From Enterobacter mori LMG 25706 (GTDB lineage Bacteria > Pseudomonadota > Gammaproteobacteria > Enterobacterales > Enterobacteriaceae): a stretch of DNA of 64,000 nucleotides. The stretch spans positions 66,175 through 130,174 of the forward strand of contig NZ_GL890773.1 in the NCBI RefSeq assembly GCF_000211415.1, in the 5' to 3' direction. The notes below the pieces were generated by a model. That model saw only the letters and a program-made list of their open reading frames with translations. It had not been told where the DNA came from and made no database searches. How positions within the stretch are numbered: position 1 is the first letter of the stretch; each line of letters opens with the position of its first letter. The translations under genes and the position numbers were made by a program. Of the stretch, positions 57,649 through 63,748 are shown in pieces.

Positions 57649-59763
57649 TTGTATCTGTTTGAAAGCCTGAATCAACTGATTCAAACCTACCTGCCTGAAG
57701 ACCAAATTAAGCGTCTTCAGCAGGCGTATCTCGTTGCACGTGACGCTCACGAGGGCCAGACACGTTCAAGCGGTGAACCCTATATCACGCACCCGGTAGC
57801 GGTGGCCTGTATTCTGGCCGAGATGAAACTCGACTACGAAACGCTGATGGCCGCTCTGCTGCACGACGTGATCGAAGATACCCCTGCCACTTATCAGGAC
57901 ATGGAACAGCTGTTTGGCAAAAGCGTTGCCGAACTGGTGGAAGGGGTCTCTAAGCTTGATAAGCTGAATTTCCGCGACAAGAAAGAGGCGCAAGCCGAAA
58001 ACTTCCGCAAGATGATTATGGCGATGGTGCAGGATATCCGCGTCATTCTCATCAAACTCGCTGACCGTACCCACAACATGCGCACGCTGGGCTCACTTCG
58101 CCCGGATAAACGTCGCCGCATTGCCCGTGAAACCCTTGAAATCTACAGCCCGCTGGCGCACCGTTTAGGTATTCATCACATTAAAACCGAGCTGGAAGAG
58201 CTGGGTTTTGAAGCGTTGTACCCGAACCGCTATCGCGTGATTAAAGAGGTGGTGAAAGCCGCACGCGGTAACCGTAAAGAGATGATTCAAAAAATCCTCT
58301 CGGAAATCGAAGGGCGCTTGCAGGAAGCGGGAATTCCGTGCCGCGTCAGCGGCCGCGAGAAACATTTGTACTCCATCTACTGCAAAATGGTGCTCAAAGA
58401 GCAGCGTTTTCACTCGATCATGGATATCTACGCCTTTCGCGTGATCGTCCACGACTCCGACACCTGCTATCGCGTGCTGGGGCAGATGCACAGCCTCTAC
58501 AAACCGCGTCCGGGTCGCATGAAAGATTACATCGCCATTCCAAAAGCGAACGGCTATCAATCTTTGCACACCTCGATGATCGGGCCACACGGCGTGCCTG
58601 TTGAGGTGCAAATTCGCACCGAAGACATGGACCAGATGGCAGAGATGGGTGTTGCCGCTCACTGGGCGTATAAAGAGCACGGTGGCGAAAGCAGCACGAC
58701 CGCACAAATCCGCGCCCAGCGCTGGATGCAGAGCCTGCTGGAGCTTCAGCAGAGTGCGGGTAGCTCGTTTGAATTTATTGAGAGCGTTAAATCCGATCTC
58801 TTCCCGGATGAGATTTACGTTTTCACCCCAGAAGGTCGCATTGTCGAACTGCCTGCGGGCGCAACGCCGGTCGACTTCGCTTACGCCGTGCATACTGACA
58901 TCGGGCATGCCTGCGTCGGCGCGCGTGTCGACAGACAACCTTATCCGCTGTCTCAGCCGCTCTCCAGCGGTCAGACGGTAGAAATTATTACCGCGCCGGG
59001 CGCACGTCCGAACGCGGCCTGGCTGAACTTTGTCGTGAGCTCCAAAGCGCGCGCTAAAATTCGCCAGTTGCTGAAAAACCTCAAGCGTGATGATTCCGTC
59101 AGCCTGGGGCGTCGTCTGCTCAACCACGCGTTGGGTGGCAGCCGTAAGCTGGCTGAAATTCCACAGGAGAACGTCCAGCGTGAGCTGGAGCGCATGAAGC
59201 TCGCCTCGCTTGACGATCTGCTGGCAGAAATTGGCCTCGGCAACGCTATGAGCGTGGTGGTGGCGAAGAACCTGCAGCAAGGCGACACAACAGCGGTGCC
59301 TGCAACGACGCAAAGCCACGGACATCTGCCGATTAAAGGCGCGGACGGGGTGCTGATCACCTTTGCAAAATGTTGCCGCCCAATTCCTGGCGACCCGATT
59401 ATTGCGCACGTCAGCCCGGGTAAAGGGCTGGTTATCCACCACGAGTCCTGTCGAAACATTCGCGGCTACCAGAAAGAAGCCGAGAAGTTTATGGCGGTCG
59501 AGTGGGATAAAGAGACCGCGCAGGAATTTATCACCGAAATTAAGGTGGATATGTTCAACCACCAGGGTGCCCTGGCGAACCTGACGGCAGCGATCAACAC
59601 GGCCTCTTCCAATATTCAGAGCCTGAATACGGAAGAAAAAGATGGTCGCGTGTACAGCGCCTTTATTCGTCTGACCGCCCGCGACCGCGTGCATCTGGCG
59701 AATATTATGCGCAAGATCCGCGTCATGCCGGACGCGATTAAAGTCACCCGAAACCGAAACTAG
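57649..59763 (+). CDS. spoT: bifunctional (p)ppGpp synthetase/hydrolase SpoT
   Basis: A 704-residue protein, two longer than in E. coli. Order: HD hydrolase domain (His72-Asp73 in ALLHDVIEDT), synthetase domain (about 200-330, with YIAIPKANGYQSLHT), TGS (about 386-447, EIYVFTPEGRIVELPAG), then zinc-finger and ACT domains at the C-terminus. It mainly breaks down ppGpp and makes it under carbon, iron or fatty acid stress. The start codon is TTG, as in E. coli, 19 nt after rpoZ. Confidence 0.98.
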   Translation: MYLFESLNQLIQTYLPEDQIKRLQQAYLVARDAHEGQTRSSGEPYITHPVAVACILAEMKLDYETLMAALLHDVIEDTPATYQDMEQLFGKSVAELVEGVSKLDKLNFRDKKEAQAENFRKMIMAMVQDIRVILIKLADRTHNMRTLGSLRPDKRRRIARETLEIYSPLAHRLGIHHIKTELEELGFEALYPNRYRVIKEVVKAARGNRKEMIQKILSEIEGRLQEAGIPCRVSGREKHLYSIYCKMVLKEQRFHSIMDIYAFRVIVHDSDTCYRVLGQMHSLYKPRPGRMKDYIAIPKANGYQSLHTSMIGPHGVPVEVQIRTEDMDQMAEMGVAAHWAYKEHGGESSTTAQIRAQRWMQSLLELQQSAGSSFEFIESVKSDLFPDEIYVFTPEGRIVELPAGATPVDFAYAVHTDIGHACVGARVDRQPYPLSQPLSSGQTVEIITAPGARPNAAWLNFVVSSKARAKIRQLLKNLKRDDSVSLGRRLLNHALGGSRKLAEIPQENVQRELERMKLASLDDLLAEIGLGNAMSVVVAKNLQQGDTTAVPATTQSHGHLPIKGADGVLITFAKCCRPIPGDPIIAHVSPGKGLVIHHESCRNIRGYQKEAEKFMAVEWDKETAQEFITEIKVDMFNHQGALANLTAAINTASSNIQSLNTEEKDGRVYSAFIRLTARDRVHLANIMRKIRVMPDAIKVTRNRN

Positions 59764-59767
59764 GTTT

Positions 59768-60457
59768 ATGAATTCACAACGTTATGCACGTATCTGCGAA
59801 ATGCTCGCCAGGCGTCAGCCTGACCTGACGGTCTGCATGGAGCAGGTGCATAAACCTCATAACGTCTCTGCTATCGTTCGTACCGCAGATGCCGTCGGTG
59901 TGCATGAAGTGCACGCCGTCTGGCCGGACGGCCGTATGCGCAATACGGTCTCGGCGGCAGCAGGCAGCAACAGCTGGGTGTCTGTCAAAAATCATCGCAC
60001 CATTGGCGAAGCCGTATCGCACCTGAAAGGGCGCGGGATGCAGATCCTTGCCACTAACCTGTCCGCTAAAGCCGTAGATTTCCGCGAGATCGACTACACC
60101 CGCCCGACCTGCATTTTGATGGGTCAGGAGAAAACGGGGATCTCCCAGGAAGCGCTGGATCTGGCGGATCGGGACATCATCATTCCGATGATCGGCATGG
60201 TGCAGTCTTTGAACGTCTCCGTGGCGTCTGCGCTCATTTTGTATGAAGCGCAGCGCCAGCGTCAGAACGCCGGAATGTATGAGCGCAGCAACAGCATGCT
60301 GCCGAAAGAGGAACAGCAGCGCCTGCTGTTTGAAGGTGGTTATCCGGTGCTGGCTCGCGTTGCGAAGCAGAAAAAATTGCCTTACCCCCACGTCAACGCG
60401 CAGGGCGAAATTGAAGCCGATGCCGAGTGGTGGGCCACCATGCAGTACGCCGGGTAA
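59768..60457 (+). CDS. trmH: tRNA (guanosine(18)-2'-O)-methyltransferase
   Basis: A 229-residue SPOUT-family methyltransferase that makes Gm18 in tRNAs. The knotted S-adenosylmethionine site is formed by LMGQEKTGIS and IPMIGMVQSLNVSVASAL (about residues 118-160), and the N-terminal catalytic Arg region lies in VSAIVRTADA. Four nt after spoT and three nt before recG. Confidence 0.98.
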   Translation: MNSQRYARICEMLARRQPDLTVCMEQVHKPHNVSAIVRTADAVGVHEVHAVWPDGRMRNTVSAAAGSNSWVSVKNHRTIGEAVSHLKGRGMQILATNLSAKAVDFREIDYTRPTCILMGQEKTGISQEALDLADRDIIIPMIGMVQSLNVSVASALILYEAQRQRQNAGMYERSNSMLPKEEQQRLLFEGGYPVLARVAKQKKLPYPHVNAQGEIEADAEWWATMQYAG

Positions 60458-60460
60458 GCG

Positions 60461-62543
60461 ATGAAAGGCCGACTGCTGGATGCCATCCCGCTAAACAGCC
60501 TGACGGGCGTGGGCGCGGCGCAAAGCAATAAGCTGGCAAAAATTGGCCTGCACACCGTGCAGGATCTCCTGCTTCACCTCCCCCTGCGTTACGAAGACCG
60601 CACTCAGCTCTATAAGATTGGCGATCTCCTTCCCGCCATTTACGCCACCGTTGAAGGCGAAGTCCTGAACTGCAACATCACCTTCGGCGGACGCCGGATG
60701 ATGACCTGCCAGATAAGCGACGGCACCGGCATTCTCACCATGCGGTTTTTTCAACTTCAACGCGGCGATGAAAAACAGCCTGACGACGGGCCGCAGGGTG
60801 CTGGCCTATGGCGAGGCCAAACGCGGGAAGTACGGCGCAGAGATGATCCACCCGGAGTACCGCGTACAGGGCGATCTCAGCACGCCGGAGCTGCAGGAGA
60901 CGCTCACCCCGGTTTACCCGACGACGGAAGGCATCAAGCAGGCGACGCTGCGTAAACTCACCGATCAGGCGCTGGAGCTGCTGGATACCTGCGCTATTAC
61001 CGAGCTGCTGCCGCCCGAGCTGGCGCAGGGCATGATGAGCCTGCCCGAGGCGCTGCGCACCCTGCACCGCCCGCCGCCAACGCTACAGCTCAGCGATTTA
61101 GAAAGCGGCAAACACCCCGCCCAACGGCGTCTTATCCTTGAGGAATTACTGGCACATAACCTGAGCATGCTGGCACTTCGCGCTGGCGCACAGCGTTTCC
61201 ATGCCCAGGCCTTAAGCCAGAATGATGAACTCAAAGATAAGCTGCTGGCCTCGCTGCCGTTTAAACCCACCGGCGCGCAGGCGCGCGTCACCGCCGAGAT
61301 TGAACGCGATATGGCGCTCGACGTGCCGATGATGCGCCTGGTGCAGGGCGACGTGGGTTCCGGCAAAACGCTGGTTGCCGCCCTGGCGGCCCTGCGCGCG
61401 ATTGCCCACGGCAAACAGGTGGCGCTGATGGCGCCGACCGAGCTGCTGGCTGAACAGCACGCCAACAATTTCCGCGCCTGGTTCGCGCCGCTGGGAATTG
61501 AAGTGGGCTGGCTTGCCGGGAAGCAAAAAGGCAAAGCGCGCCTTGCGCAACAGGATGCCATTGCCAGCGGGCAGGTGCAGATGATTGTCGGCACGCACGC
61601 CATCTTCCAGGAGCAGGTGAAGTTTAACGGTCTTGCGCTGGTGATTATCGACGAGCAGCACCGCTTCGGCGTGCATCAGCGTCTGGCACTGTGGGAGAAA
61701 GGCCTGCAGCAGGGCTTCCACCCGCATCAGCTGATCATGACCGCTACGCCGATTCCGCGCACCCTGGCGATGACCGCCTACGCCGATCTGGATACCTCCA
61801 CCATCGACGAACTGCCGCCGGGCCGTACCCCGGTCACAACGGTCGCCATTCCTGACACGCGCCGCAGCGATATCATCGACCGCGTGCGCAACGCCTGCAC
61901 CCACGAAGGCCGTCAGGCCTACTGGGTCTGTACGCTGATTGAAGAGTCTGAACTGCTGGAGGCGCAAGCTGCCGAAGCCACGTGGGAAGAGCTTAAGCTG
62001 GCGCTGCCGGAGCTGAACGTCGGTCTGGTGCACGGACGCATGAAGCCCGCCGAAAAACAGGCGGTGATGCAGTCGTTCAAACAAGGTGATTTGCATCTGC
62101 TGATCGCCACCACGGTGATCGAAGTCGGCGTGGACGTCCCGAATTCCAGCCTGATGATCATCGAAAACCCGGAGCGTCTCGGCCTTGCCCAGCTCCACCA
62201 GCTGCGCGGGCGCGTCGGCCGCGGCGCGGTAGCGTCCCACTGCGTACTGCTCTACAAAGCCCCGCTCTCAAAAACCGCCCAGATGCGGTTGCAGGTGCTG
62301 CGCGACAGCAACGACGGTTTTGTGATTGCGCAAAAAGACCTGGAGATCCGCGGCCCGGGCGAACTGCTGGGCACGCGTCAGACGGGGAACGCGGAATTCA
62401 AAGTGGCGGATTTGCTACGCGATCAGGCGATGATCCCCGAAGTTCAGCGCCTCGCACGCCATATTCATGAACGCTACCCCGAACAGGCGGCAGCGTTGAT
62501 TGAGCGCTGGATGCCGGAAACTGAACGCTACTCCAACGCCTGA
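60461..62543 (+). pseudogene. recG: ATP-dependent DNA helicase RecG, interrupted by a +1 frameshift
   Basis: RecG reverses stalled forks and branch-migrates Holliday junctions. Frame one (60461-60955) matches the wedge domain of E. coli RecG to GILTMRFF. The match then moves to another frame, from about MKNSLTTGRRVLAY (60768) to MPETERYSNA (62543), with Walker A GDVGSGKT and the helicase motifs intact. The break is a run of six T (60746-60751); five T would give RFFNFNAAMKNSL, as in E. coli, and a product of exactly 693 residues. As written, the first frame adds a wrong tail and stops; a product from 60768 would lack most of the wedge domain. It may be a real mutation or a homopolymer read error. 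Confidence 0.9.
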
Positions 62544-62545
62544 TT

Positions 62546-63748
62546 TCAGGCAAACATCGGCAGCATCAGGTACAGCTTAATCACCAGCGCGTTGACGATA
62601 TCAATAAAGAACGCCCCGACCATCGGGACCACCAGAAACGCCATGTGCGATGGCCCGAACCGTTCGGTGATCGCCTGCATGTTGGCGATAGCCGTTGGGG
62701 TAGCCCCCAGACCAACCCCGCAGTGACCCGCCGCCAGCACCGCCGCATCGTAGTTTTTGCCCATCATGCGCCAGGTCACGAACATGGCGTACAGCGCCAT
62801 AAACAGCGCCTGCACCGCCAGTATCGCCACCATCGGCAGCGCCAGCGAGGCCAGCTCCCACAGCTTGAGGCTCATCAGCGCCATCGCCAGGAACAGCGAA
62901 AGACAAACGTTACCGAGCACCGATACCGCCCGTTCAAACACGCGGTAGAAGCCCACCAGCGCCAGACCGTTGCTCAGGATCACCCCGATAAACAGCACGC
63001 AAACAAACGTCGGCAGTTCAAACGCAGAGCCCGCCAGCCATTGCGCAACCACTTTGCCCACGGTCAGGCAGATGGCGATCATCGCGATGGTTTCAATCAG
63101 CACCAGCGAGGTAATGCTGCGCCCGACGTCCGGTTTTTCGAACGCGGTCGGCACCAGCTCATCGTCAGGCCTGCCGTTCGGCGTGGTGGAGTGTTTAACC
63201 AGATAACGCGCCACCGGGCCGCCAATCAGGCCACCCAGCACCAGACCAAAGGTCGCACAGGCCATCGCCACCTCCGTCGCGTTTTCAAACCCATAGCGCT
63301 CGATGAACAGCTTGCTCCACGCGGCTCCGGTACCGTGACCACCAGAAAGGGTAATCGACCCCGCCAGCAGTCCCATCAGCGGATCCAGCCCCAGCAGCGT
63401 CGCCATCCCGATGCCGATGGCGTTTTGCATCAGCAGCAGCCCCACCACCACAATCAGAAATACGCCGAGCACTTTACCGCCCGCCCGCAGGCTCGCCAGG
63501 TTGGCGTTCAGGCCGATGGTGGCAAAGAAGGCCAGCATCAGCGGGTCTTTCAGGGACATATCAAAATCGATTTCCCAGCCCATGCTTTTTTTCAGTATCA
63601 GCAGGGCCAGCGCCACCAGCAGGCCACCGGCGACAGGTTCAGGAATGGTGTATTTCTTCAGAAGGGAAACGCTATGTACCAGCTTACGACCAAGCAGTAA
63701 GACCAGCGTTGCGGCAACAAGTGTCGACAACGTATCGAGATGAATCAT
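62546..63748 (-). CDS. gltS: sodium/glutamate symporter GltS
   Basis: A 400-residue inner-membrane protein with about 10-12 hydrophobic segments and an inverted two-fold repeat; pore-loop signatures are SGGHGTGAAWS near 142 and AGHCGVGLGATPTA near 345. It takes up glutamate with sodium. Start at 63748 (MIHLDTL), aligned with E. coli; 28 further codons upstream are open but unlike the family. Convergent with recG, with a 2-nt gap. Confidence 0.97.
   Translation of the reverse strand: MIHLDTLSTLVAATLVLLLGRKLVHSVSLLKKYTIPEPVAGGLLVALALLILKKSMGWEIDFDMSLKDPLMLAFFATIGLNANLASLRAGGKVLGVFLIVVVGLLLMQNAIGIGMATLLGLDPLMGLLAGSITLSGGHGTGAAWSKLFIERYGFENATEVAMACATFGLVLGGLIGGPVARYLVKHSTTPNGRPDDELVPTAFEKPDVGRSITSLVLIETIAMIAICLTVGKVVAQWLAGSAFELPTFVCVLFIGVILSNGLALVGFYRVFERAVSVLGNVCLSLFLAMALMSLKLWELASLALPMVAILAVQALFMALYAMFVTWRMMGKNYDAAVLAAGHCGVGLGATPTAIANMQAITERFGPSHMAFLVVPMVGAFFIDIVNALVIKLYLMLPMFA

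Follow-up and report, generated by a model that had tools for sequence, protein, structure and literature searches.

The recG gene of this Enterobacter draft genome is broken in the deposited letters by the gain of one base, and we consider it somewhat likelier, at a probability of roughly 0.55, that the frameshift is a single-base insertion error in the draft than that it is a genuine mutation. On this reading the locus would be an unremarkable chromosomal recG, belonging to an Enterobacter near E. asburiae, in which a doubled G ahead of a normal six-T stretch (F96-F97) produces an apparent frameshift; the insertion error would be systematic, coming from sequencing or assembly, and the organism probably makes an ordinary RecG. 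The error is favoured because the event is absent from every other aligned locus, because the gene bears no sign of decay, because other small breaks occur in the same assembly and because there is an excess of extra G's in one sequence context. The finding is an ordinary one whether it proves to be an error or a real mutation.

The window, which is the whole stretch of 64,000 nucleotides that was analysed, lies on contig 1 (66175-130174); the whole genome measures 4.96 Mb in 23 contigs. The recG locus within it is laid out as follows.

57649-59763, plus strand: open frame of 704 aa, further upstream of recG (ORF list), presumably spoT.
59768-60457, plus strand: open frame of 229 aa, directly upstream of recG (ORF list), presumably trmH.
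60461-60955, plus strand: 5' part of recG, a first frame of 164 aa from the ATG at 60461 to a stop at 60955 (ORF list); RecG (wedge domain) from residue 1 to about 97, the remainder out of frame.
60744-60752, plus strand: break site, two G's, six T's and one C, exceeding every aligned relative by one base.
60768-62543, plus strand: 591-aa 3' part of recG, which opens at an internal ATG (RecG residue 103) and ends at the usual stop codon (ORF list).
62546-63748, minus strand: convergent open frame downstream of recG, its ATG start judged by eye, presumably gltS.

At the edge of the window, genes for tRNA-His and tRNA-Arg are found on the minus strand (22-238).

The gene is 2083 bases long here and 2082 in the nearest relatives. 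The RecG model NF008163 (692 positions) is matched in two frames, at 2-106 by the first (residues 2-106) and at 103-692 by the second, so that recG is indeed frame-broken in the letters as given, and no single reading frame yields a full-length RecG equivalog match; the second frame alone passes the model cut-off, with 1105 versus 796 bits. The RecG_wedge domain (PF17191) is split in the same manner, profile positions 6-90 of 162 falling in the first frame (residues 15-98) and 95-159 in the second, and is matched unsplit over 6-159 in the close relative L091, whose intact RecG has 693 residues. In a domain search the 591-aa frame contained DEAD, Helicase_C, RecG_dom3_C and the rest of RecG_wedge, which means that both helicase domains are present and the first part of the wedge/OB fold is not; no one frame holds a complete wedge/OB domain, and the SF2 motor and the RecG C-terminal domain are whole. 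The best matching segment of this 591-aa piece is 99% identical to E. asburiae TN152 and to two other records, one of them labelled Lelliottia; with recG DNA that is 95-96% identical in its closest relatives of the genus, the genome is placed in Enterobacter, near E. asburiae. The first-pass annotation had described the downstream helicase motifs as preserved, which holds, and had calculated 693 residues upon removal of one base, a length that would be expected from the relatives.

In the protein, the break interrupts the wedge domain at R95-F96-F97, and the T run exists at this site because it codes for F96-F97. It had been proposed that recG is broken by one extra T in a six-T run; the run lies exactly at 60746-60751, the frame is broken and the net gain is one base, but a T as the surplus base is not supported. 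At the break point, one base fewer is present in 109 of the 109 other recG loci that were aligned. In the eight nearest of these (L009 and L090-L096, seven distinct sequences since L009 and L093 are the same gene), whose recG DNA is 95.2-96.0% identical to that of the window, the T run is also six letters long, and it is preceded by one G where the window has two, so that the surplus base aligns to G. Most simply, a single inserted G would account for the difference in one step, while an inserted T would need a substitution in the arginine codon as well. Among 115 distinct recG sequences (a set that omits L225, the one locus of 140 missed by the site pattern), the run has six T's in 34, five in 54, seven in one and fewer in 26; judged by this distribution, six T's is an ordinary run length in recG.

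These run lengths also bear on slippage in the T run, either as a phase-variable recG switch or as transcriptional or ribosomal slippage that would supply some full-length RecG. The site does adjoin six T's, and a forward slip would, by the codons present, re-pair the phenylalanine codons. We nevertheless hold such slippage to be highly improbable: the run is as long as in the intact nearest sisters, the frame change occurs in none of the 109 other loci, and in the passages of PMC3711429 that deal with the subject programmed transcriptional slippage is often placed at homopolymers of at least eight or at two shorter ones combined, and the scan for phase variation used poly-A/T runs of at least seven. 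A programmed frameshift or phase variation would be recognised by a transition or a variable repeat conserved in relatives, and 138 of the 141 recG loci have a single frame. Since the nearest sisters carry the same six T's with an intact frame, T-run slippage was rejected, and the earlier suggestion of a reversible change in the run is likewise not supported, six T's being normal (34 of 115).

A broken recG is rare among the genomes compared. Of 141 recG loci, which come from two partly overlapping sets and do not represent 141 independent genomes, 138 stay open for at least 680 codons, and the three exceptions are the present genome and two others of the genus. One of these, G032 (locus L104), has an independent break elsewhere in recG, with one base fewer, in a genome of 2 contigs with a listed completeness of 100%; there the adjacent 229-aa frame matches uninterrupted, as does the 704-aa frame over its visible end. 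The other, G001 (locus L218), is a single contig of 78% listed completeness with many small indels in recG, and its assembly looks error-laden. In E. coli, the recG place is found with at least 80% query coverage in 5374 of 5426 complete genomes, and 60 rows spread over the 5374 show no net length change. Among the papers listed by literature searches on recG and frameshifts, none reports a recG frameshift in Enterobacter, as judged by titles and the starts of abstracts.

The main alternative to an error in the draft is a genuine and very recent one-base insertion that inactivated recG in the sequenced isolate and may have arisen in culture, to which we give somewhat less than an even chance. 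Translation would then end with residue 164, a motor of 591 aa that lacks the part of the wedge recognising forks could be made from a weak internal start, and RecG activity is predicted to be lost or nearly so. The deposited frame is after all broken, G032 has a separate recG break, and real indels of 1-2 bp have frameshifted 13 genes in the laboratory strain ER2796 relative to MG1655, according to the portion of PMC4444293 available to us. In addition, PMC5055574 states, in the section concerned, that E. coli without RecG is not much impaired in its normal growth; the loss being tolerated there, a recG-null strain could live. Against a genuine null mutation stand the frame kept in 138 of 141 loci, the coverage of recG in E. 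coli and its unchanged length in the 60 rows, the lack of decay beyond one base, and the small-indel breaks in other conserved genes of the assembly, tolQ among them. An extension of the same idea, that recG is lost now and then within the genus and that RecG has here been genuinely and recently lost by the one-base gain at R95-F96-F97, perhaps favoured where over-replication or amplification is temporarily useful, seems to us unlikely.

The state of the rest of the gene says little about which of the two took place. Between recG and its nine nearest relatives, with the two pieces counted separately, 5-13 nonsynonymous codons stand against 74-110 synonymous changes; by these counts, recG is a gene under strong purifying selection until very recently, and an ongoing decay of recG is ruled out by them. 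The marks of a decaying pseudogene were absent, there being no relaxed selection and no other indel relative to L009 and L090-L096. The signal of purifying selection is compatible both with an error and with a very recent mutation and does not separate them, as a recent loss likewise leaves past selection visible in the remaining gene. The first-pass annotation had read the preserved motifs as pointing to a very recent event or a read error, which is supported; its caution was sensible, a read error being the slightly better supported of the two, although for a different base. For singletons with a BLASTp-validated frameshift, the authors of GeneTack, in the relevant part of PMC3711429, expect sequencing errors rather than genuine indels.

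The quality of the assembly was examined by comparing the present genome (G000) with its relatives G034, G010 and G007. G000 is a draft of 23 contigs with a completeness of 96.82 and a contamination of 2.87, and 56 of 61 genomes of the genus are listed with a completeness of 99-100. It contains N runs, 4 of them in a stretch of 200 kb and 14 over 600 kb, some of which possibly do not come from the assembly; on its contig 4, a short N run has identical bases on either side, as if overlapping contig ends had been joined by N in a scaffolding-like manner. The comparison with G034 covered 800 kb, of which about 697 kb aligned with 30,602 mismatches, and 400 kb were also compared with G010 and G007. 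Decay should raise both frameshifts and nonsense mutations and indel error only frameshifts. In the 800 kb against G034, six genes of G000 have mid-gene, N-free frameshifts of one or two bases each, namely recG, putA, yccS, pqiA, RNase I and tolQ; in G034 three were counted, one of which is the partner side of the tolQ break of G000, leaving two. The difference of 6 versus 2 is weak and not significant (two-sided sign test, p 0.29), and mid-gene nonsense mutations number 5 in G000 and 7 in G034. Apart from recG, these genes (tolQ, putA, yccS, pqiA and RNase I) lie on contig 4 of G000, outside the window, and their G034 copies are intact.

Several further candidates were excluded as breaks. In EmrD and S-methylthioribose kinase the indel precedes the family match, which starts at residue 82 and residue 39, respectively; galactonate dehydratase, one base shorter in G000, reaches the limit of the compared stretch; two genes have a break that spans an N run; in an RND outer-membrane subunit the break is near the start, at 6% of the length; and RmuC has a break near the start and an N-terminal match that differs more. 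Some of these may be real breaks, and they stand outside the count of six. When four genomes were compared over genes intact in at least one further relative, frameshifted genes numbered 3 of 195, 5 of 230 and 5 of 247 in G000, each of these counts including one break that spans N; 0 of 178, 0 of 227 and 0 of 228 in G034; 2 of 193, 2 of 178 and 0 of 185 in G010; and 1 of 246, 1 of 190 and 2 of 233 in G007. With frameshifts and stops pooled, the four genomes were alike, at 1 to 5 of the 151-163 genes intact in both other relatives. A generally error-laden genome was ruled out: of the 47-48 genes per reference that all three relatives conserve, recG was the sole broken one in the first 200 kb, and pooled breaks were no commoner than in the relatives. 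What carries the case for an error is the frameshifts, taken by themselves, together with the context of extra G's.

That context is a gained base directly before TT. Isolated single-base gains of G or C have this position in 7 of 13 cases in G000, recG included, versus none of 11 in G034 (Fisher p 0.006); a stricter flank filter leaves 7 of 12 versus 0 of 6 (p 0.038), and against a before-TT background of 7.2% in the window the binomial p is 6e-6. As the pattern had been noticed post hoc, 160 kb of fresh sequence were then examined, in which the extra G stood before TT in 2 of 2 cases in G000 and in 0 of 1 in G034. Pooled over 960 kb, the counts, which are small, are 9 of 15 in G000 versus 0 of 12 in G034. 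In the other pairings, gains before TT numbered 2 of 3 and 0 of 1 for G000 versus G007, 1 of 1 and 1 of 2 for G000 versus G010, 0 of 2 and 1 of 2 for G034 versus G010, 0 of 3 and 0 of 1 for G034 versus G007, and 2 of 8 and 0 of 5 for G010 versus G007, so that G010 shows the pattern to a degree. By its position, the recG event would carry the signature of a process that is pronounced in the G000 genome. We infer that the excess of extra G's is due to sequencing and not to mutation in the cell, although a real mutational bias of the strain may be its source instead.

Other observations weigh against an error. Random errors should fall mostly in genes, yet only 3 of the first 7 before-TT cases break a conserved gene, and neither of the fresh cases lies in a gene flagged as frameshifted; outside open reading frames of at least 150 aa, single-base gains (35) and losses (30) are about even. 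Moreover, the fresh 160 kb held no N-free frameshift in G000 or G034, the sole flag in G000 spanning N and G034 having none, and it held more stops in G000 than in G034 (10 versus 4 overall, 5 versus 1 mid-gene), which is unlike what is predicted from indel error only.

If the break were real, the first piece would lack the motor, and the second, begun at the internal ATG, would lack residues 1-102 and with them R95, F96 and F97. A passage of PMC10164576 places R95 on the DNA-binding surface of RecG and cites the finding that changing F96 or F97 to alanine drastically lowers DNA binding and unwinding. Fork remodelling would in that case probably be lost, and the isolate would offer a naturally occurring RecG-less strain in which to learn how a wild enterobacterium handles over-replication at fork fusion. 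Chiefly, the case cautions against equating a broken frame with a loss of function when the housekeeping gene concerned comes from a draft genome. It cautions as well that the wrong base may be blamed unless relatives are aligned.

Compared with the RecG of gamma-proteobacteria, a helicase of branched DNA (NF008163, PDB 9wm0; 1gm5 for T. maritima), the two pieces jointly match along the length and the motor domains are complete, and the intact relative L091 matches 9wm0_A over 1-693; the known proteins differ in being encoded by an uninterrupted frame, which is here interrupted at R95-F96-F97 in the wedge domain. The frameshifts of ER2796, as described in part in PMC4444293, are similar in being indels of 1-2 bp that accumulated in a single strain, but those were established by a finished genome, whereas mutation and error are not separable here from the letters. 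There is also a likeness to the false pseudogenes that arise from small-indel errors in drafts, as portrayed in the part of PMC12007338 concerned: a conserved gene has gained one base, which the aligned relatives lack, and bears no other decay, to which some similar events elsewhere in the same assembly can be added in the present case. Those examples come from long-read assemblies, and for recG an error is somewhat likelier than a mutation.
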